Origin: Allorhodopirellula heiligendammensis
Lineage (GTDB): Bacteria; Planctomycetota; Planctomycetia; Pirellulales; Pirellulaceae
Reading direction: 5' to 3'
Assembly: GCF_007860105.1 (NCBI RefSeq)
Contig: NZ_SJPU01000001.1
Coordinates: 558,001 to 622,000 of the forward strand
DNA: 64,000 nt
The notes beneath the pieces were generated by a model, which did not search any database, was not told where the DNA came from, and saw nothing but the letters and a program-made list of their open reading frames with translations. This document shows positions 20,155-30,578 of this stretch, piece by piece. A program made the translations under genes and the position numbers. Numbering within the stretch: the stretch's first letter is position 1; the number at the start of each line of letters is the position of its first letter.

Positions 20155-21048
20155 CTAGAAGACTGACTCAACAAACATGTCGTCAGGTAGTGGTTTTCTC
20201 TCGTAATGATCGTGTCGTTCACGCGGCGGCATTTCTACTGCTGCGTTTTCGGTCTCCTGATATGGGATCTGCTTCAGCAGGTGTCCGATGCAGTTGAGCC
20301 GAGCCCGTTTCTTGTTATCCGCTTCAACAATCCACCACCGCGAGAATGGCAGGTTGGACTTCTGCAGCATCACCTCTTTCGCTTCAGTATATTGCTCCCA
20401 GCGACGCCGCGACTCAAGGTCCATTGGGCTGAGTTTCCATTGCTTGAGAGGGTCGCTGATTCGGCACTGAAACCGAAATTGTTGCTCCTCGTCGGAAATG
20501 GAAAACCAGTATTTGACCAGATGGATTCCCGAGTCGACGAGCATTTGTTCAAAGCTTGGTACGTCGCGAAAGAAGGCTTCGTATTCATCCTGGGTGCAGA
20601 AGCCCATCACACGCTCGACCCCCGCCCGATTGTACCAACTGCGATCGAAGAGCACGATTTCCCCGGCGGCGGGAAGATGAGGAACGTAACGTTGGAAATA
20701 CCACTGGGTTTTTTCTCGCTCCGACGGCGCCGTCAGAGCAACCACGCGGCAAACTCGCGGATTGAGCCGCTGTGTGATCCGCTTGATCGCGCCACCCTTT
20801 CCAGCGGCATCTCGACCCTCGAAGACGACAGCAACCTTGGCACCCGTTTCGACGACCCAGGCCTGCAATTTGATCAACTCTTGCTGTAATTGCAGGAGAT
20901 GCCGAAAATAGTTTCGCCGGGTCAATTCGCGGTCCTCCTGCGAATTTGGATCGCGATCCGAGATCGCTTCCTCTAGTTCTGCCTCAAACTCCTCATCGAT
21001 GGAGTCAAGGATTTCTTCACGGATTCTCAACAGATCTGATTCGTTCAT
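20155..21048 (-). CDS. ppk2: Polyphosphate kinase 2 family protein
   Basis: The 297-residue protein contains the PPK2 P-loop kinase domain: Walker A GRDAAGKGGAIKRI, RDAAGKGG-type phosphate loop, lid region TAPSEREKTQWYFQRY, Walker B VLFDRSWYNRAGVE, and the KYWFSISDEEQQFRF segment. PPK2 enzymes use polyphosphate to phosphorylate nucleoside mono- or diphosphates (or the reverse). Length and motifs fit the one-domain class (about 270-300 residues). The N-terminal 70 residues are acidic and helical. The ATG at 21048 is chosen; a TTG eight codons earlier is possible. The gene lies near other phosphate-related genes (23.6-30.6 kb) but is separated from them by an oppositely oriented regulator and a peptidase. 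Confidence 0.93.
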   Translation of the reverse strand: MNESDLLRIREEILDSIDEEFEAELEEAISDRDPNSQEDRELTRRNYFRHLLQLQQELIKLQAWVVETGAKVAVVFEGRDAAGKGGAIKRITQRLNPRVCRVVALTAPSEREKTQWYFQRYVPHLPAAGEIVLFDRSWYNRAGVERVMGFCTQDEYEAFFRDVPSFEQMLVDSGIHLVKYWFSISDEEQQFRFQCRISDPLKQWKLSPMDLESRRRWEQYTEAKEVMLQKSNLPFSRWWIVEADNKKRARLNCIGHLLKQIPYQETENAAVEMPPRERHDHYERKPLPDDMFVESVF

Positions 21049-21610
21049 GGCGGTGATTCGTGGTCGTTCCAAATTGACGCTCGCTACTGAAATCGATGGC
21101 AGGCGACTGATTCATATCATTCCATCGGGGGCGATTCAAAACAGTCAGTCACTGGCAGCAAGCATAGATAGAACCGGTCGGTCGCATACATGCATTGCGA
21201 TGCAGTTTAAAAAACTTCACGCCAACTTCATCTGTCGATTTGGATTGGGCTGGATGCCCGTATGGTCGCGAAGCTCATCTGGAATTTTGTGACTGAAGGC
21301 AGAACTCAGCAATGGTCCCTACAGAGCTGGGCCGGAGAACGTTCCAGCATTGATGCAAAGCGATTCATTCACAGTGCAGTGGTGCCGCCCCCTCCGCATC
21401 GGTCGGCTCCATTTGTGGTTCGGTCCGCGAGCAAATCGAACCCTATTTGAGCAGCAGGGCCTGTCGGGCGAGGTCGCTAGTTTCGCCTGTGAGCGGGGCA
21501 CCCAGGCAGTTTCAAGGTCGAAACCAAATTTCCCAAGATTCACAAAGTCATGCATTGACTGCCAATGTCATACGGCGTATGCTGGTTTGTATGTGAGGCA
21601 GAGAGAGATC
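21049..21610. other. Intergenic region with a promoter for the ribbon-helix-helix gene
   Basis: This region of 560 bases lies between divergent ppk2 and the small regulator gene. Apart from the promoter/palindrome at 21555-21583 no gene or RNA was recognised. Reading frames in the region lack family features. Confidence 0.5.
21555..21583 (+). promoter_or_regulatory. Sigma-70-type promoter with an overlapping palindrome
   Basis: A -35 element TTGACT (21555-21560) and a -10 element TATGCT (21578-21583) are spaced by exactly 17 bases. The sequence catacggcgtatg (21569-21581), an inverted repeat of catac around ggc, overlaps the -10 box, a natural operator position. It lies about 28 bases upstream of the ribbon-helix-helix gene and could be an autoregulatory site. 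Confidence 0.6.
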
Positions 21611-22182: not shown

Positions 22183-23445
22183 CTACTCTTGCTCACCGCA
22201 CCCGCGAAAGATGAGCGCGTGCGCAGCGCTGGGCTGGAGTGCGTCGAGCCAGAGGCTGACATCGCGATCCCTATAGCCGAGCATTGTCGTGGCGAAGTCG
22301 GCGTCGGTGATGCATTGACCATAGTGAATGAGCGACGCACTGCCCTCATCGGTGTATTCGCAGGCATGAGGATCGTGCATCTCGATGCTGCCGCGGATAG
22401 TGTCGCGAACGTAATCGAGCCACTGTTGTGATCGCAATTCTGGACTGCCGATCAGCCGCCAGAACGCGTCGAGTACCCGCTCCGGCTCTGCGCTCGTTTG
22501 CGTGACGAGGCCAGCATAACCGCCATCAGGATAGGTCGTGCTGATGAAATCAGGTGAATATGCCAGTCGTTCATCTTCGCGAACCAGGCGATTCAGTGGT
22601 GATCCCAGGTCACCAGCGGAAAACACGTGTTCGAGAAAATCCCACTGCAGCCGCGCAGTGATGCCCTCGCACAGCGGTCCAATGGGGAACAGCAAGTAGA
22701 CGACGGAATCCGCGTGCGAGGTATGGATGGTTGTCGTCTGTCCCGCCTGCCAGGTCGGCAATGGACCATAGTTGGCCGGGCACCTGCGTTCGGAAAGGGG
22801 ATGGTCAGGCATTTGTTCCATACACCCACCGACAACCTCGAGCAATTGTTGGCGTTCGATGTCGCCCGCCAGAAACAGCACTGAGCGGTTGCGTGAGTAT
22901 CCCGATGCATGGGCGTGACGCAGTTGATTGGCATCAATGGCTCGCAATTGTTTGGCGGTACCGAGTTGATCGTGACCGAGCGGATGCCCAGGCCATAGCA
23001 GACCTGGCAATCGGCACAGCGAGTGATGATATGGATCAGAATGCCATTCGCCGATCTCCTGCAGGATGACTTCGCGTTCAGCTTCGATATCGTCAATCCG
23101 CAACAGTGGTTGGCCCACCATATCAGCGAGTACCTCCAGCGCGTCCGCCCACACGCGTTTAGGAACGTTGGCGCTGAACGAGGTATGCGTGGATCCCGTT
23201 TCTGCATCACTGTCCCCACCGTGGCGTACCAATCGAGCTTCCGTGTCTCGATACCCGCCCGGAAACTTGTGAGTTCCCCGAGAGGGAATGTGCTCAAACC
23301 AGTGATAGACGCCGTGACCTCCGGCTTGGTCATCGTCGGCACTGCCGACGAACACGAGCCAGTTCATCGAAACGGTGTTGACCGGCAGACGCTGGAAATA
23401 GATTGGGACCCCATTCGGTCCCGTGATCAATTCAAAGTCAATCAT
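22183..23445 (-). CDS. M16-family zinc peptidase (insulinase-like)
   Basis: The 420-residue protein has the inverted zinc motif HxxEH in GVYHWFEHIPSRGT and the distal metal-binding Glu in EAEREVILQEIGEWH, about 75 residues later. The N-terminal M16 domain is followed by a substrate-binding-like second half (from about residue 210), as in single-chain bacterial M16B peptidases of about 420 residues. There is no signal peptide, so it is probably cytoplasmic and degrades peptides. The ATG at 23445 is preferred over a TTG nine codons upstream because the sequence MIDFELITGPNGVPI fits the family start. It is divergent from the plcP-like gene, sharing a 220-base promoter region. Confidence 0.9.
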   Translation of the reverse strand: MIDFELITGPNGVPIYFQRLPVNTVSMNWLVFVGSADDDQAGGHGVYHWFEHIPSRGTHKFPGGYRDTEARLVRHGGDSDAETGSTHTSFSANVPKRVWADALEVLADMVGQPLLRIDDIEAEREVILQEIGEWHSDPYHHSLCRLPGLLWPGHPLGHDQLGTAKQLRAIDANQLRHAHASGYSRNRSVLFLAGDIERQQLLEVVGGCMEQMPDHPLSERRCPANYGPLPTWQAGQTTTIHTSHADSVVYLLFPIGPLCEGITARLQWDFLEHVFSAGDLGSPLNRLVREDERLAYSPDFISTTYPDGGYAGLVTQTSAEPERVLDAFWRLIGSPELRSQQWLDYVRDTIRGSIEMHDPHACEYTDEGSASLIHYGQCITDADFATTMLGYRDRDVSLWLDALQPSAAHALIFRGCGEQE

Positions 23446-23532
23446 GATTGCAGAAAGCACTCGTGTGGACAAAAGGTGAGCGGCTGAGTGTGGGCGTTCC
23501 AGTTCCGTGCAGCCAAGCTGGGTCGAAGGTGC

Positions 23533-23550
23533 CTGTGAAAAAACTGTCCG
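23533..23550 (+). promoter_or_regulatory. Candidate Pho box upstream of the plcP-btaAB genes
   Basis: The sequence CTGTGAAAAAACTGTCCG holds two CTGT heptamers separated by the 4-base A-rich spacer AAAA, giving the 11-bp period of the PhoB-binding Pho box. It lies about 119 bases before the start of the plcP-like gene. The first heptamer (CTGTGAA) and the second (CTGTCCG) each match the CTGTCAT consensus only in part. Confidence 0.5.
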
Positions 23551-23668
23551 AATTCATCGAACCTATTGGCTGAGTTAACAGAAACGACATCATCGAGTGC
23601 TAAAGTCACTTTCAGTGAAGAAGCCAATTGCTTGTTACTTTGAATACAGGACCAAGGGCGTGACTGAC

Positions 23669-24529
23669 ATGGAGATTCGGCCAGTACGTACCCTTCTGGT
23701 CAGCGACGTGCATCTGGGGTGTAAGCACTCCAGAGCGAAGGAGTTTTTGGAGTTCCTGCAAGGCTTCGCACCCGACAAACTATACATTGTCGGCGACTTT
23801 ATCGACACCTGGAAAATCAACTCCGGCTGGCACTGGTCGACGGCTTGCGACGATACGATATCGCATCTGCTCATGCTCGCAGAGCGAGGAGCACAGGTGT
23901 TTTACGTTCCCGGCAATCATGATGCATTTCTGCGGAACCCCATGTTTCGCATGGCCCTGCCACCTGAGTTCAGGCAACTTCAGATTGCGAATGAATTTGT
24001 GTTCGAAACACTCAGGGGCTGGCGATTCCTGGTTACCCATGGCGATCTATTCGATTGTTTTGAAACGCAAGCACAATGGGTCTCGAAAGGGAGCTCTGTG
24101 TTCTACGACGCCTGCTTAAGCGTCAATTGGTGGGCCCATCGCTGGATGATGAATCAGAGCCGGAATCCGTACGGAGCTTGCGCACTGCTTAAGAATCGAG
24201 TCAAGCGTGGCATCCGATTTATTAGCCAGTACGAATCAAAAATCATGCATCACGCTCGTCAGCAGTCATGTGAGGGCGTCGTTTGTGGACATATCCATAC
24301 ACCGGGAATCCGCTACTCCGACTCGATGCTGTACTGCAACACCGGAGATTGGGTGGAAAATTGTACGGGCCTCATTGAGGACCATGACGGTGAAATTCGC
24401 TTGGTCTCTCGCTATGCCGAGGAGCAGGTGCTCTCGCTCCCCCGGCTTGAAGGACGTGCCAATGGACGGCGTTTGAACGCGTCGCAGCGACTTCCTCAGC
24501 ACGTCGGCGAAAAAGACTTTGCAGCTTAA
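23669..24529 (+). CDS. plcP: PlcP-like metallophosphoesterase (phospholipase C for lipid remodelling; LpxH-type fold)
   Basis: The 286-residue protein carries all calcineurin-type metal motifs in order: SDVHLG (near residue 12), VGDFIDTW, VPGNHDAF, VTHGDLFD and CGHIHTPG. The longer conserved stretches (IVGDFIDTWKINSGWHW, GDWVENCTGLIEDHDG) resemble PlcP of alphaproteobacteria, which removes the head group of phosphatidyl lipids under phosphate starvation, more than LpxH. The context supports this: btaA and btaB follow 41 bases downstream on the same strand, and a Pho-box-like repeat lies upstream. LpxH-like UDP-diacylglucosamine hydrolase activity remains an alternative. The ATG at 23669 starts the protein at MEIRPVRTLLVSD; longer in-frame extensions lack similarity. 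Confidence 0.82.
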   Translation: MEIRPVRTLLVSDVHLGCKHSRAKEFLEFLQGFAPDKLYIVGDFIDTWKINSGWHWSTACDDTISHLLMLAERGAQVFYVPGNHDAFLRNPMFRMALPPEFRQLQIANEFVFETLRGWRFLVTHGDLFDCFETQAQWVSKGSSVFYDACLSVNWWAHRWMMNQSRNPYGACALLKNRVKRGIRFISQYESKIMHHARQQSCEGVVCGHIHTPGIRYSDSMLYCNTGDWVENCTGLIEDHDGEIRLVSRYAEEQVLSLPRLEGRANGRRLNASQRLPQHVGEKDFAA

Positions 24530-24570
24530 GTTGACACTTCTTTGGTTTCCCTAGTTTGAACTGATAATCG

Positions 24571-25803
24571 ATGATTACTCAATGGATCGGACGAAGATGC
24601 TTCTCAGCCGTGCATCAACGAAACCTGGTTTACAACACCTGTTGGGAAGACCCCCGGCTGGATCGTCAGGCCCTCAATCTCGGTGAGAGCGACAATGTGC
24701 TGGTGATCACCTCAGCGGGCTGCAATGCATTGGACTATGCCCTCGATGGGCCCCAGAATGTGTTTGCCGTTGATATGAATCCATTGCAGAATGCTTTGCT
24801 CGAATTGAAGATGGCGGCCATCAGCGCGTTGTCATTCAGTGAGTTTTTCACCGTGTTTGGTGAAGGCGGGAACCCCGATTGGCGATCGATGTACTTCGAT
24901 GCAGTGCGAGGTCGACTCGATGAAAAATACCAAGATATTTGGGACAAACGCTTGGATTTCTTTGAAAAGAGTCACCGTCGAGGCAGCTTTTACTTTCGCG
25001 GTACCTCTGGCTTGTTTGCTTGGATTATCAATGCTTACATGGATCGCATGCCAGGACTACGCGATGCCGTGCTCGATATGTTGGAGGCACCGTCGGTCGA
25101 GCACCAACAGGAGATATTCGTGACCAGAGGCGTCAGTGAACTGCTCTGGAGTAAACCGCTGCGTTGGGCGTTGCGGCGCGAGTCGACGATGGCGATGCTC
25201 GGTGTTCCACGCAGTCAGCGAGACCAGATCCAGCGAGGGTACCCAGGAGGAATTACTGGCTTTATTCAAGATCGGATCGAGAGCGTGTTCAGGAATGTAT
25301 CGCTCCGCGACAATTATTTCTGGCGAGTTTATTTGACAGGCCAGTACTCAAGCACCTGTTGCCCAGAATACCTCAAGCCAGCAAATTTTATGCTGCTCAA
25401 AAATGGATTGGCGGAGCGGATCTCGACCCACACGACCACGGTGGAGGGATTTTTAAATCGCTCAGAATGTGAGGTCTCGCGGTTTGTGTTACTCGATCAT
25501 ATGGATTGGCTCTACGATCGCTATCCAGAAAAGTTGGCCGCCGAATGGCAGAGTATATTTGATCGCGCGGCGGAAAACTCTCGCATTCTGTGGCGAAGTG
25601 CAGCTCTCGAAGTGGACTTCGTCGATCCACTGCGAATCAAGGTAGATGGATTGCAAGTCGCCCTGGGGGAAGTTCTTCATTATCAATCTGAGCTAGCCGA
25701 GCAGCTGCACCAGCGCGACCGCGTCAATACCTATGGCAGTTTCTATATCACCGACCTGCACAAGCATGCAGCCAGTACTGGTGCTAAGGGAGTCGCCGCG
25801 TGA
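24571..25803 (+). CDS. btaA: BtaA-like S-adenosylmethionine:diacylglycerol 3-amino-3-carboxypropyltransferase (DUF3419)
   Basis: The 410-residue protein belongs to DUF3419. It opens with LVYNTCWEDPRLDRQAL and a Rossmann-like SAM site VLVITSAGCNALDYAL followed by VFAVDMNPLQNALLELK. BtaA transfers the 3-amino-3-carboxypropyl group of S-adenosylmethionine to diacylglycerol, forming diacylglyceryl homoserine, the first step to the betaine lipid DGTS. The length matches Rhodobacter-type BtaA (about 400-415). Its stop overlaps the GTG start of the methyltransferase gene by four bases (GTGA). The product is expected to act at the inner face of the cytoplasmic membrane. Confidence 0.9.
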   Translation: MITQWIGRRCFSAVHQRNLVYNTCWEDPRLDRQALNLGESDNVLVITSAGCNALDYALDGPQNVFAVDMNPLQNALLELKMAAISALSFSEFFTVFGEGGNPDWRSMYFDAVRGRLDEKYQDIWDKRLDFFEKSHRRGSFYFRGTSGLFAWIINAYMDRMPGLRDAVLDMLEAPSVEHQQEIFVTRGVSELLWSKPLRWALRRESTMAMLGVPRSQRDQIQRGYPGGITGFIQDRIESVFRNVSLRDNYFWRVYLTGQYSSTCCPEYLKPANFMLLKNGLAERISTHTTTVEGFLNRSECEVSRFVLLDHMDWLYDRYPEKLAAEWQSIFDRAAENSRILWRSAALEVDFVDPLRIKVDGLQVALGEVLHYQSELAEQLHQRDRVNTYGSFYITDLHKHAASTGAKGVAA

Positions 25804-26666
25804 GCATCACTTCACCCAGAATTAAACTAAGTGAGGACTTAAAGGTGCTTTGGCATTTGCTGTTACGCCCGGTACGTGGGCACACCCATGCCGAGCGATT
25901 AGAAAGCTTTTATCGTGGTCAGGCAGACAGCTATGACTCCTTCCGCTCGCGATTACTTCACGGGCGCGAACGGCTGATCGGCAGCCTTGAGTTTCCCGAT
26001 GATGGTGTGTGGGTAGACATGGGTGCGGGAACGGGCGAAAACGTTGTTTTTGCAGGCGATTCGGTGTCTCGCCTGAGAGCGATTCACCTCGTTGATCTCG
26101 CACCGTCGCTCCTCGAGGTCGCCCAACGGAGAATGCAAGAGCGCGCTATCACGCAAGCCAGAGTGCATCTGTGCGACGCTACCCAATTCGAGCTGCCGCC
26201 CGCGAGTGTTGATGTGATTACGTTTTCATACTCGCTGACGATGATCCCAGACTGGTTCGAGGCGATCTTGGTCGCCCAACGTCTGTTGAAGCCTGGTGGA
26301 ACGATCGCAGTGGTTGATTTTACGGTTTCGAGAAAGTTCGCATCAGCGCCGCAGCGTCAGCACCATTGGTGCCAACGCACTTTCTGGACACACTGGTTTG
26401 CCTTCGACAATGTGTTTTTGACCCCTGACCATCTCGCGATGCTGACTCGCTTGTTCCAAACAGAACGATTGGAGCAATCATCAGGAAGGGTGCCCTACCT
26501 GCCGTTGCTGAGAGCTCCGTTTTATCTCTTTGCGGGGCGAAAATCACGGCAGCGTTGCGACCCAAGCAGCAGTGAAAATCACGTTTTTTCCCGGGATTCC
26601 ACGTATGAATTCGCCTCCCAGTCTAGTGGGGATTGTCAGTTGCGACCGGGACGGGGAACAGTGTGA
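25800..26666 (+). CDS. btaB: BtaB-like S-adenosylmethionine-dependent N-methyltransferase
   Basis: The 288-residue class I methyltransferase has the SAM motif WVDMGAGTGENVVFAGD, the acidic turn HLVDLAPSLLEVA and the motif VDVITFSYSLTMIPDW. BtaB methylates diacylglyceryl homoserine three times to give DGTS. The identification rests on the gene fusion-like coupling to btaA (GTGA overlap) plus the similarity to BtaB of this opening (HAERLESFYRGQADSYD). Length exceeds typical BtaB (about 210) because of an N-terminal extension and a C-terminal tail of about 40 residues of low conservation. It ends 99 bases before pstS, on the same strand. Confidence 0.87.
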   Translation: MSITSPRIKLSEDLKVLWHLLLRPVRGHTHAERLESFYRGQADSYDSFRSRLLHGRERLIGSLEFPDDGVWVDMGAGTGENVVFAGDSVSRLRAIHLVDLAPSLLEVAQRRMQERAITQARVHLCDATQFELPPASVDVITFSYSLTMIPDWFEAILVAQRLLKPGGTIAVVDFTVSRKFASAPQRQHHWCQRTFWTHWFAFDNVFLTPDHLAMLTRLFQTERLEQSSGRVPYLPLLRAPFYLFAGRKSRQRCDPSSSENHVFSRDSTYEFASQSSGDCQLRPGRGTV

Positions 26667-26765
26667 ATATTTCGTTAAGGAAGGTTCCCACGGGCAGTAG
26701 CTCAAACTACAAGTAAGAACCTGAATTTCAAATCATCCAGTGGCACGTAACCAAAGAGGCCCTTT

Positions 26766-27842
26766 GTGCTCAAGTCGGTATCGATTCTTAATACGCTACT
26801 CGGATTGGCAATGGTTGCTGGTTGCGGCCCGTCACGCTCGTCGGATAGCTCCGGTGCAACGGGAGATACCTCTCATGTGAAACTACAGGGTTCTGGGGCG
26901 AGTTTCCCTGCGCCCCTCTACGGTCACTGGTTCAAACAGTTTAGCTCAGAGACGCCGGGCGTCAGGGTTGACTATCAAGCAAAGGGCAGTGGCGGTGGTA
27001 TTAAGGACTTCATTGAGCATACCGTCGATTTTGCGGCCAGTGACGCTGCGATGAATGACGACGAGATATCTCAGGTCGATGCGGGCGTAGTGCTACTGCC
27101 ATTGACTGCCGGTAGCGTGGTGCTGGCCTACAATTTACCGAGCCTTGAGCAGCCACTGAAGTTGTCTCGTGAAGCATACAGCAAAATTTTTCTCGGCGAG
27201 ATCGCCCGCTGGAACGATCCTGTGATCGCGGAGATGAATGAGGGCGCCGATCTGCCTGACTTGCCGGTCACAGTGGTTGTTCGAGCCGACAGTAGCGGGA
27301 CGACCTATGTTTTTACAAATCACCTATCAGCCATCAGTAAGGGATTTGCGAGCGGGCCTGGAACTGGAAAGAGCGTGAGTTGGCCCGAGAGTGACAAGTT
27401 CATTGCTGCACCTAAAAACGATGGTGTGACGGCGACGATCATGCAGACACCCGGCGCCATTGGTTATGTCGAGTTCGGATTTGCGGCCCAGGCTAAGCTG
27501 CCAATGGCAGGGCTTGAGAACCAATCGGGTAAGGTGATTGCGCCGACCCTTGAGAATGCCGCAGCAGCGCTCGCTACCGTTGCGATGCCAGAGGACATGC
27601 GGGCGTGGTTGCCCGATCCGGTCGGCGAACAGGCATACCCGATCGTCAGTTACACATGGCTGCTCTGCTATCAAAAGTATGATGATGAGAACAAGGCTCA
27701 GGCACTCAAAGATTTGGTTCGTTGGTGCCTGACGACAGGGCAGAGTTCCGCTCCCGAGATGGGATACGTGGCACTCCCGCCAAACGTCATCGAATCCGTG
27801 CAAGCGAAACTCGATTCCATTCATTCGAATAAAGTGAACTGA
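26766..27842 (+). CDS. pstS: Phosphate ABC transporter substrate-binding lipoprotein PstS
   Basis: The 358-residue protein starts at GTG after AGAGG, with a lipoprotein signal ending LAMVAGC. Phosphate-binding loops are visible: GSGASFPAPLYGHWF, KGSGGGIKDF, VDFAASDAAM and RADSSGTTYVF. It binds inorganic phosphate outside the cytoplasmic membrane and delivers it to PstCA. Length (about 340 in mature form) fits PstS of the SphX/PstS type. The stop overlaps the pstC start by one base (TGATG). Confidence 0.95.
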   Translation: MLKSVSILNTLLGLAMVAGCGPSRSSDSSGATGDTSHVKLQGSGASFPAPLYGHWFKQFSSETPGVRVDYQAKGSGGGIKDFIEHTVDFAASDAAMNDDEISQVDAGVVLLPLTAGSVVLAYNLPSLEQPLKLSREAYSKIFLGEIARWNDPVIAEMNEGADLPDLPVTVVVRADSSGTTYVFTNHLSAISKGFASGPGTGKSVSWPESDKFIAAPKNDGVTATIMQTPGAIGYVEFGFAAQAKLPMAGLENQSGKVIAPTLENAAAALATVAMPEDMRAWLPDPVGEQAYPIVSYTWLLCYQKYDDENKAQALKDLVRWCLTTGQSSAPEMGYVALPPNVIESVQAKLDSIHSNKVN

Positions 27843-28816
27843 TGTCTAAGTCCGCCGAGTGGGAGTCGCGAGCGTCGGTGTCGACGGCTCCCACCAAGTT
27901 TGATGTCGCGAATGATCGCGTGTTCCGCCAGTTTACTCGTATCTTTGCATGGCTCACCGTTGCACTGGTCTTTTTCATTGTCTACGAAGTCGCTGGAAAA
28001 GCGTTGCCCGCGATCCGCGAGCATGGGCTGTCGTTTCTGACGTCGACTACCTGGAATTTGCAGAAGGGCCAATTCGGTGTGTTACCAGAGATATGGGGAA
28101 CTCTCTATAGTTCGATCTTGGCACTGCTGATTGGTGGATTTTTTGGTGTTTCGATTGCAATCTTCTTAACGCAAAACTTTTTGCCTTCCAAGGTCGAGTG
28201 GGTATTTAAGAACATCGTCGAGTTATTGGCAGCAATCCCCAGCGTGGTTTATGGCCTATGGGGAATCTTTGTCGTCATCCCGATGATCCGGCCTGTGGCG
28301 AACTGGCTCCATAGTCACCTGGGCTGGTGCCCACTGTTTGGCACTTCGCTCTCAGGTCCGGGCATGCTACCGGCGGCGTTGGTGTTGTCCATCATGATTT
28401 TACCCACGGTAACAGCGATCTCGCGTGGATCCTTGAGCAACGTGCCCAGCAAGCTGAAGGAGGCCGCCTACGGACTGGGGGCAACTCGGTGGGAAGCGAT
28501 CTTCGGAGTCATCTTGCCCACGGCGTCGAAGGGGATTTTCGGTGCTCTCGTTCTGGGATTCGGCCGCGCTCTAGGAGAGACGATGGCCTTGGCGATGTTG
28601 GTTGGCAACTCCAACCAGATGAGCGTTTCGCTGTTCTCTCCCGGGAACACGCTTGCCGCCCTCTTGGCAAACCATTTTCCTGAGGCGACTGCATTGGAAG
28701 AGCCGGTGCTGATGTATGCCGCCCTCGTTCTGCTGGCGATCACGTTGGCCGTCAACATCTGTGGTGCTGTCGTGCTCAATCGAGCATCTGCTCGCCTAAC
28801 GGGAGTGGCTCACTGA
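27842..28816 (+). CDS. pstC: Phosphate ABC transporter permease PstC
   Basis: The 324-residue membrane protein has about six transmembrane segments and the permease EAA-type loop KLKEAAYGLGATRWEAIFGVILP followed by GRALGETMALAMLVGN (both split across the cytoplasmic loop contacting PstB). A cytoplasmic N-terminal tail of about 30 residues precedes the first helix. PstC forms the phosphate channel with PstA. It overlaps both neighbours by one base (TGATG junctions), consistent with a single pst transcript. Confidence 0.94.
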   Translation: MSKSAEWESRASVSTAPTKFDVANDRVFRQFTRIFAWLTVALVFFIVYEVAGKALPAIREHGLSFLTSTTWNLQKGQFGVLPEIWGTLYSSILALLIGGFFGVSIAIFLTQNFLPSKVEWVFKNIVELLAAIPSVVYGLWGIFVVIPMIRPVANWLHSHLGWCPLFGTSLSGPGMLPAALVLSIMILPTVTAISRGSLSNVPSKLKEAAYGLGATRWEAIFGVILPTASKGIFGALVLGFGRALGETMALAMLVGNSNQMSVSLFSPGNTLAALLANHFPEATALEEPVLMYAALVLLAITLAVNICGAVVLNRASARLTGVAH

Positions 28817-29730
28817 TGACACCCGATGAAATCACGACCGAGTTCGCTGAGATTGATTTTCCGAAACTCGATCGGTCGCTACGTCATCCACGCACCATGA
28901 TCAGTGCGGCGCTGAGTATAGGGGCGTTTCTGGCGACGGTCGTGGCATGCGTCCCATTGTTGAGTGTGCTCGTCATGCTGGTGTATCGAGGTGGCAAGAA
29001 ATTGTCGCTGGAACTGTTTACGGAGTTGCCGCCGACCGGGTTTGAATCCGGCGGCGGATTCGGCAATGCGATCGTCGGAACCATCGTGATCGTGGCAATC
29101 GCAGCGGTCATCTCCATCCCCAGCGGTGTCTTGACTGCCATCTTTCTAGCTGAGTTTGGTGCGGGGTCTAAAACAGCGTCGGTCGCTCGGTTTTGCGCCA
29201 AAACGTTGACTGGTCTGCCATCGATTTTGGCCGGTGTGTTCGCGTATGCCGCCGTTGTCGTAGCGACAGGAACGTATTCTGCTCCGGCAGGCGGGGTCGC
29301 GTTGTCGCTGTTGATGCTGCCGACGATTATTTTGACCGCCGAAGAGGCGATGCGAATGGTACCCACGAAGATGAAAGAAGCCGCCATCGGCATGGGGTGC
29401 ACGCCAACCCAGGTGGCTTGGAAAATTGTATTGCCAACTGCGCTGCCCGGCATTTTAACGGGTGTGATGTTGGCGATCGCGCGAGCCGCTGGTGAGACCG
29501 CACCGCTGTTATTCACAGCACTTTTCAGTAACTACTGGATCTTTGAAGATGGGCAATCGCAAGTGATGGAGCCGACCGCATCCCTCGCCGTGTTTATCTA
29601 CAACTTTTCCGGAATGCCGTTTGAGAACCAGATTGAGATGGCATGGGCGGCATCACTGATCTTGGTGCTGATGGTTCTGACGACCAATATCACCGGACAA
29701 ATTATTTCACATAAGACAAAACTAACCTAA
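28816..29730 (+). CDS. pstA: Phosphate ABC transporter permease PstA
   Basis: The 304-residue membrane protein has six predicted helices and the PstA coupling loop KMKEAAIGMGCTPTQVAWKI followed by ARAAGETAPLLFTA. It starts with the ATG that overlaps the pstC stop and has a 35-residue cytoplasmic N terminus. Together with PstC it makes the phosphate-conducting pore. The pstB gene starts 23 bases after it, preceded by TTGGAGA. Confidence 0.94.
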   Translation: MTPDEITTEFAEIDFPKLDRSLRHPRTMISAALSIGAFLATVVACVPLLSVLVMLVYRGGKKLSLELFTELPPTGFESGGGFGNAIVGTIVIVAIAAVISIPSGVLTAIFLAEFGAGSKTASVARFCAKTLTGLPSILAGVFAYAAVVVATGTYSAPAGGVALSLLMLPTIILTAEEAMRMVPTKMKEAAIGMGCTPTQVAWKIVLPTALPGILTGVMLAIARAAGETAPLLFTALFSNYWIFEDGQSQVMEPTASLAVFIYNFSGMPFENQIEMAWAASLILVLMVLTTNITGQIISHKTKLT

Positions 29731-29753
29731 CGTAGAAATTTGGAGAATCCAAC

Positions 29754-30578
29754 ATGATTGCGACACCGAGCGATGAAGTGGAAGACTTGTTGGCCAATGG
29801 AGATGGCGACCTGCTATTGGATTGTAGGATCCGAAATCTTTACTATGGATCGTTTCGGGCGGTGCGTGATAGCCACATCCCAATCCATCGAGGGTCCGTA
29901 ACAGCCTTTATCGGTCCATCCGGCTGCGGTAAGAGCAGTGCGCTCCGTTGCCTGAATCGTATGAACGATCTGGTGCGCGGTTTTCGCTTCGACGGGCACG
30001 TTCACTTTCGAGGCAAGGACATTTACCACGCGCATATTGATCCGGTTGCCGTACGACGGTACATCGGCATGGTTTTTCAACAGCCCAATCCGTTTGCCAT
30101 GAGCATTTTCAATAACGTCGCCTTTGGTTTGCGCTTAAATCGCTATCGAGGCGATATTGGCGAGAAGGTCGAAGAGGCTCTTCGTGGGGCGGCTCTTTGG
30201 GAAGAGGTCAAGGACAAGCTGAAAAATAGCGGCCTCTCCCTCTCCGGCGGACAGCAGCAACGACTCTGTATCGCTCGGGCGATCGCGACCGAACCCGAAG
30301 TCCTGCTGATGGATGAGCCCTGCTCGGCCCTCGATCCAATTGCCACTCGGCGGATCGAGGAGCTCATCAGTGAGCTTACTGAGAAGTACACGATTGCAAT
30401 CGTCACCCACAATCTGCAACAGGCCAAACGTGTGGCAAACAATACTGCCTTCATGTACGTCGATACCAGTGAAGGCGGCCGGACAGGTTATCTCGTAGAG
30501 TTCGGAGAGACACAAGAACTCTTCGATTCACCGCAGGAGGATGCCACCAAGCGTTACATCCAAGGCGAATTCAGTTAG
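29754..30578 (+). CDS. pstB: Phosphate ABC transporter ATP-binding protein PstB
   Basis: The 274-residue ATPase has Walker [21 protein letters not shown]-loop [13 protein letters not shown], the signature [16 protein letters not shown], Walker [14 protein letters not shown] and the H-loop [15 protein letters not shown]. These are the textbook PstB features. It energises phosphate import through PstCA. No phoU follows; the next gene is on the opposite strand and converges. PhoU or the PhoR/PhoB pair must be elsewhere if present. Confidence 0.96.

Follow-up and report, generated by a model that had tools for sequence, protein, structure and literature searches.

Two adjacent predicted Pho units, plcP-btaA-btaB and an accessory pst cassette, in Allorhodopirellula heiligendammensis

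The 64-kb window analysed in this work (contig NZ_SJPU01000001.1, positions 558,001 to 622,000; window coordinates are used below) lies on a 2.75-Mb contig of the 7.18-Mb genome of the planctomycete Allorhodopirellula heiligendammensis and carries, at 23.6-30.6 kb and on one strand, seven genes coding for a PlcP-type metallophosphoesterase, BtaA, BtaB, PstS, PstC, PstA and PstB. The question raised by this neighborhood is whether lipid remodelling and phosphate uptake are coupled here in one locus, as was claimed in a sequence-only reading of the window, or whether two separate sets of genes have come to lie side by side. We consider it likely that these are two separately promoted, adjacent units of the phosphate (Pho) regulon which were recently juxtaposed, rather than an old pst-bta operon, because the pst cassette has a predicted Pho box of its own, none of 89 bta loci from relatives adjoins pst genes, and BtaB carries an unmatched C-terminal tail. 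The earlier claim therefore holds for the adjacency of the genes but not for a unit that evolved as such.

Gene layout and the predicted Pho box upstream of plcP

The first gene, plcP (23669..24529, plus strand, as are all seven genes), codes for a protein of 286 aa recognized by family models, tree position and motifs. The longest open reading frame (ORF) extends from a GTG codon (23597-24529); the true start is probably the ATG at 23669 rather than this GTG, because the conserved protein starts there and the promoter element described below overlaps the upstream part. After a gap of 41 nt follows btaA (24571..25803), coding for the S-adenosylmethionine (SAM):diacylglycerol 3-amino-3-carboxypropyl transferase, which is placed in the BtaA tree and matches DUF3419 (PF11899) over the full length (positions 7-383 of 385; 378 bits, cut-off 28.2). 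The btaB gene (25800..26666) overlaps btaA by 4 nt and codes for a SAM-dependent methyltransferase, predicted to act as the N-methyltransferase of the betaine-lipid headgroup from its methyltransferase families and its pairing with btaA, which it follows in most relatives' loci as well; there is no BtaB-specific model among its Pfam and NCBIfam matches. The pst cassette begins 99 nt further on and consists of pstS (26766..27842; phosphate-binding lipoprotein, TIGR00975, 372.7 bits, cut-off 205), pstC (27842..28816; permease, TIGR02138, 311.9 bits, cut-off 196.45), pstA (28816..29730; permease, TIGR00974, 262.4 bits, cut-off 193.45) and pstB (29754..30578; ATPase, TIGR00972, 364.8 bits, cut-off 343.2), all four proteins scoring above the equivalog cut-offs. 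Both the ORF positions and the family matches bear out the gene set, the single strand, the overlap and the 41- and 99-base gaps given in the sequence-only reading. Gene identities and order, like the conservation of the boxes considered next, were computed directly.

A predicted Pho box with a -10-like TAAAGT, the putative promoter of plcP-btaA-btaB, is located at 23574..23606 on the plus strand. It is composed of two TTAAC-type half-sites and displays what characterizes a Pho box, namely two direct repeats with an 11-bp period near a promoter. The upstream regions of plcP in relatives share the pattern GTTAACA-N5-TNAACA-N7-G(C/A)TANNCT with fixed spacing. The window was in view when this pattern was spotted by eye; it was afterwards excluded from the scoring matrices, one of 33 bases and one of 18 bases covering the half-site pair, which were derived from 14 sites in relatives' plcP promoters and run along both strands of the window. 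The 33-base matrix ranked 23574 first (23.6), 26647 second (8.3) and another site third (5.1), and the 18-base matrix ranked 26662 first (19.7), 23574 second (12.9) and another site third (11.8); the plcP promoter and the btaB-pstS junction thus occupy the top two ranks of the window. When leave-one-out matrices were applied to 16 loci with the plcP-btaA-btaB triad (L110 and L115 were left out, the latter belonging to the same genome as L165), 13 gave p ≤0.003 per 420 nt; the value for the window was about 0.0013.

A generic test for TTMAC pairs (spacings 4-8) was less selective: a score of 8 of 10 was reached in 14 of the 16 triad loci at the 11-bp period and also in 10-12 of them at other spacings, and only the mean stands out (8.44 for triad loci; btaA-only loci average 7.44 and random pieces 7.27). 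A match to the E. coli type of Pho box, CTGTGAAAAAACTGTCCG (23533..23550, plus strand, 14/18), coincides with the point at which the sequence-only reading had begun the locus, 41 nt before the conserved element. It is probably due to chance and was rejected as the operative box, since a scan of both strands of the window gives two such 14/18 matches; the relatives scanned had no match of 14/18 ahead of plcP.

The accessory pst cassette, its junction with btaB and the predicted regulator

The pst unit has its own predicted Pho box, CTTAACGAAATATTCACA, at 26662..26679 on the minus strand, the first-ranked site of the 18-base matrix in the window, and the stop codon of btaB lies within it. The plcP-derived matrix detected 9 of the 12 accessory pstS promoters of relatives above the 95% null level, although these genes were outside its training set, and the best site upstream of accessory pstS was inverted, as in the window, in 11 of the 12 loci. 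By eye, the sequence upstream of the window's cassette is also similar to that at stand-alone loci, for example L145-L147. The genome encodes three proteins that match PstC at E ≤1e-40, and the PstC of the window scores above 300 bits, as in 12 other sampled genomes, this line for accessory pst being arbitrary, with scores continuing just below it. At L147, L148, L150 and L151 accessory pstS is transcribed away from a conserved gene that codes for about 560-625 aa (cluster c99), and TTAAC-type sites lie between the two.

The genomes sampled were 149 drawn from the family Pirellulaceae, 106 of which have a detectable BtaA. From these, 89 loci with a strong BtaA match (L033-L121) were fetched with flanks of up to 7 kb, shorter at contig ends; strong matches of G014, G050, G052, G073, G094 and G095 came without flanks and were left out. 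Neither pstS, pstC nor pstA adjoins btaA at any of the 89 loci (the PstB matches there are low-scoring ABC ATPases), and none of plcP, btaA and btaB adjoins pst at the 12 fetched accessory loci. In two genomes of the same genus, G091 and G141, the accessory pst is located elsewhere and bta was not seen adjoining it; within this sample the btaB-pst adjacency is a peculiarity of one genome. An alignment of 16 BtaB sequences revealed in the window's protein an extra C-terminal tail of 40 residues after FAGRK (26544..26663, plus strand) with no counterpart in the 15 relatives, which marks the probable pst junction. Together with the synteny, this unmatched tail ending in the pst Pho box suggests, as the simplest reading, that the 3' end of btaB was joined to the pst promoter by a rearrangement in this lineage.

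A single plcP-btaAB-pstSCAB operon, transcribed as a whole and with remodelling and uptake having evolved together, would agree with the common strand, the 99-nt gap and a btaB-pstS gap in which no terminator-like site was listed, so read-through may take place. Such an operon is nevertheless unlikely: the Pho box at the pst junction shares its position and orientation with those of accessory pst loci, the two sets of genes are never neighbors at the 89 btaA and 12 accessory pst loci of relatives, and the tail of BtaB points to a junction.

The surroundings of the locus were also compared. The addA gene was present in all ten relatives searched, and seven fetched addA regions contained no other gene of the window except addB and, in two of them, a 31-36% match to one gene; the G045 contig ends 0.4 kb from addA and is uninformative. 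The M16 protease gene left of plcP (22183-23472) and a nearby gene (20155-21072) have counterparts in G028 (79% and 69% identity). None of the other nine relatives searched gave a match to the protease, and a horizontal acquisition is possible.

The putative regulator is encoded about 109-117 kb upstream of plcP, in a phoR-pstS-pstC-pstA-pstB-phoU-phoB region with PhoR-like, PhoU and PhoB-like genes. Within this 19-kb main pst region the best site of the relatives-only matrix (19.2, the next being 3.7) lies 80 nt upstream of pstS. Four out of six main-type pst loci of relatives gave p <0.05, including L157 (p 0.049), where the site has the opposite orientation and lies at the edge of the stretch. 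No comparable box was found at the second plcP (L273), the third pst (L144) or the second DUF3419 cluster (L122) of the same genome. Under phosphate scarcity the PhoR-PhoB pair of this main pst region would activate both units, PhoB binding both boxes. PlcP would strip the phosphate-bearing headgroup from phospholipids, leaving diacylglycerol, onto which BtaA would move the 3-amino-3-carboxypropyl group of SAM; BtaB would then add three methyl groups, yielding the phosphate-free betaine lipid diacylglyceryltrimethylhomoserine (DGTS), and the accessory PstSCAB of the second unit would import phosphate. For PhoB binding, the enzyme activities, DGTS and Pho control, this scheme draws on the protein families and on published homologous systems.

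The box might instead be the site of another regulator of the OmpR/PhoB family: the 50 matches to the PhoB model in the genome include, besides the pst-linked candidate, another four of full length and one split into two pieces. That it belongs to such a regulator is unlikely, as comparable sites are located ahead of the phoB-linked pstS in this genome and of the accessory pst operons of relatives, and its form is like that of known Pho boxes.

Several points weigh against two PhoB-controlled units with DGTS as the product. Pho control and DGTS are predicted from sequence, and the phosphoesterase was assigned as PlcP by comparison with experimentally uncharacterized PlcP-like proteins. The plcP box was originally noticed by eye among upstream regions that included that of the window, its second half-site is degenerate, and L275 and L277, two sites of the 14-site matrix, had been picked up by a matrix containing the window, which is itself in neither scoring matrix. 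Sites are weak at the triad loci L082, L083 and L104 (p 0.027-0.047), at the accessory pst loci L147, L152 and L154 and at the main-type pst loci L161 (0.060) and L158 (0.161). Both regulator candidates fall below the curated cut-offs (PhoB 237 vs 296 bits, PhoR 294 vs 334 bits). A clean genome-wide regulon was not obtained from patterns either. Exact TTAACN6TTAAC, with no site in the whole genome (one and three for spacings N5 and N7), was dropped as a regulon finder. The relaxed pattern STTAACRNRATNTTMACA, devised after the window's pst site had been viewed and hence circular for that site, has two exact sites, the pst junction and one within an ORF on contig C3, and with up to two mismatches it gives 19 sites, many of them inside mechanical ORFs, vs 11 for the reversed control.

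The PlcP-type phosphoesterase and the triad in relatives

The product of plcP is a calcineurin-like metallophosphoesterase (Pfam Metallophos, E 7.8e-13) with a complete metal site, the motifs DxH, GDxxD, GNHD, HGD and GHxH of which are invariant among 24 aligned proteins. The protein falls below both curated LpxH cut-offs (PRK05340, 51 vs 134 bits; TIGR01854, 41.4 vs 190.35). The best-matching solved LpxH aligns only to residues 9-135 (E 8.6e-08) and the alignment with E. coli LpxH spans 130 positions; among matching records of plasmid-borne PlcP-like proteins, at least 80% of the length is covered in 29 of 30. A C-terminal NTGDWxE motif is present in the plcP product and the PlcP-like group and absent from E. 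coli LpxH. In a tree of 69 rows, made up of experimentally uncharacterized PlcP-like proteins and a single, very long-branched LpxH, the protein is placed inside a planctomycete group whose members adjoin bta or glycosyltransferase genes or stand alone (all trees were quick searches). The gene itself adjoins one for the synthesis of a non-phosphorus lipid, btaA being 41 nt downstream. A PlcP-type rather than LpxH identity is thus supported; in view of the lone long-branch LpxH row and the uncharacterized PlcP references, the argument draws mainly on cut-offs, motif and context. The sequence-only reading had named the protein PlcP-like and proposed a phylogeny against LpxH, and on both counts the grouping with PlcP-like proteins from bta and glycosyltransferase loci, the missed LpxH cut-offs and the NTGDWxE motif agree with it, within a comparison set of one LpxH row and uncharacterized PlcP-like proteins.

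A second PlcP-like gene of the same genome (contig C2, L273:7396-8292) has no bta or glycosyltransferase neighbor in view, and in one relative the triad PlcP (G130:C9:166639-167451) is divergent with one in-frame TGA and is possibly decaying.

Of the 89 btaA loci, 14 have plcP upstream of btaA and three have it downstream of btaB; in the other 72 it was not detected in the stretch, and some of these may reflect missing sequence as several contigs stop near btaA. Judged by its recurrence in 14 of these loci, the plcP-btaA-btaB adjacency exceeds chance. The same order is found in named genomes of Botrimarina, Rhodopirellula, a Planctomicrobium metagenome-assembled genome and the alphaproteobacterium Puniceibacterium. 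Out of 80 named-genome loci fetched by PlcP, BtaA lies within 4 kb of plcP in 14, a glycosyltransferase without BtaA is present in 60 (the glycosyltransferase queries were derived from such plcP neighbors) and neither in six; having been selected via PlcP, the named planctomycete loci are uninformative on the frequency of plcP-less btaAB outside the family. In the BtaA tree (102 rows), plcP adjoins btaA in 30 rows, among them 12 named rows, four of these being outgroup. As most plcP-less rows are concentrated in one clade (69 of its 72 rows lack plcP) and three state changes suffice, the tree speaks for an ancestral triad that one clade has lost, subject to the bias of the named loci having been selected by PlcP.

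The btaAB genes could also provide a constitutive betaine lipid, with the phosphoesterase acting on another substrate (e.g. an LpxH-like enzyme using a nucleotide-sugar lipid). The 72 loci with no plcP detected fit this idea, as does the finding that, out of 75 loci where btaA has no plcP ahead of it, only two show a box above the 99% null level. For the window it is unlikely, given the missed LpxH cut-offs, the PlcP-type motif and the conservation of arrangement and box along with btaAB. A related idea for the family as a whole, tentative and rather doubtful, is that the Pho-controlled triad was ancestral in Planctomycetota and that a large Pirellulaceae clade lost both plcP and the Pho box, its betaine lipid becoming constitutive and phosphate-independent; if true, DGTS would have turned from an emergency substitute into a standing membrane component. 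In two genomes of the same genus with plcP apart from btaAB, the box sits at plcP (L275, L277) and none above the 99% null level is found upstream of btaA (L076, L097), and these genomes provide a natural test for the dependence of DGTS on Pho control. Three situations form natural contrasts: a triad with its box, plcP separated from btaAB, and btaAB lacking both in the vicinity.

In several relatives btaB is followed by a gene for a three-part membrane protein of 618-699 aa (L163:9862-11871, L109:4303-6177, L120:3462-5318), whose C-part weakly matches PEMT below the cut-off, whose N-part has an Mpo1-like look (E 0.38 in one of six) and whose middle has no family. It is present in 10 of the 149 genomes (one fragment), was not found in the genome of the window, and is a candidate modifier of betaine lipids or acyl chains. 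This protein and the division of btaAB into Pho-linked and Pho-free genes are the more interesting leads. A second, distant DUF3419 protein of the same genome (92 bits) is encoded at the end of contig C3 in a five-gene cluster (L122:5362-9921) with a fatty-acid desaturase, a PAP2_3-type membrane protein, a protein without a Pfam match and a haem-oxygenase-like protein; similar low-scoring DUF3419 proteins occur in G033, G040 and G131, and the cluster may possibly make another aminocarboxypropyl lipid.

Comparison with known systems

The sequence-only reading had regarded the locus as the best candidate for an undescribed system in the window and was aware of no published planctomycete example. 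As to the first point, plcP-btaA-btaB is a published type 1 arrangement and is not unique, occurring in the 14 Pirellulaceae loci and other planctomycetes; the second is largely fair, except that planctomycete BtaA sequences stand in a published Bta tree (PMC10685587) and the gene order was known from Phaeobacter (PMC4796936). The tree paper concerns the same family and phylum, its available part treating BtaA evolution without gene context, PlcP or regulation. A literature search, with most subscription journals outside it, yielded among the matches listed no report of planctomycete PlcP or DGTS remodelling and no Pho box for Planctomycetota. In the accessible part of a 2023 paper, the list of phyla with known betaine lipids omits Planctomycetes, and betaine lipids correlate with Planctomycetes in the field (PMC10667739). 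The lipid-remodelling gene set is of a known kind and the new part is its predicted regulation, so that phosphate-responsive betaine-lipid remodelling is extended to Planctomycetota in genes and predicted regulation, and a Pho-box model is offered for this phylum.

The closest known system is the type 1 cluster, plcP-btaA-btaB, in Phaeobacter sp. MED193, where DGTS was lost in a plcP deletion mutant; the gene order and putative Pho boxes in plcP clusters are on record for Phaeobacter as well as other marine bacteria (PMC4796936), and for alphaproteobacteria PlcP and DGTS synthesis have been described as PhoB-controlled (PMC3972451). The window resembles this cluster in gene content, gene order and putative Pho box, and differs from it in phylum and in the pst cassette next to btaB. 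The BtaA and PlcP of the Puniceibacterium locus with the same order (L228, Rhodobacterales) are about 30% and 37% identical to those of the window. The plcP-agt glycolipid remodelling systems of Pelagibacter and Methylosinus (PMC4796936, PMC9239053) share with it the supply of diacylglycerol by PlcP under phosphate limitation, as proposed here, but have a glycosyltransferase where the window has BtaAB. Published Pho boxes are 11-bp direct repeats, with which the box of the window agrees (PMC4415409). Like the cyanobacterial SphR box CTTAACCT preceding pst genes (PMC1906773), it consists of TTAAC-type 8-bp direct repeats with a 3-bp linker, whereas in the planctomycete plcP promoters G(C/A)TANNCT stands 7 nt downstream of the pair.

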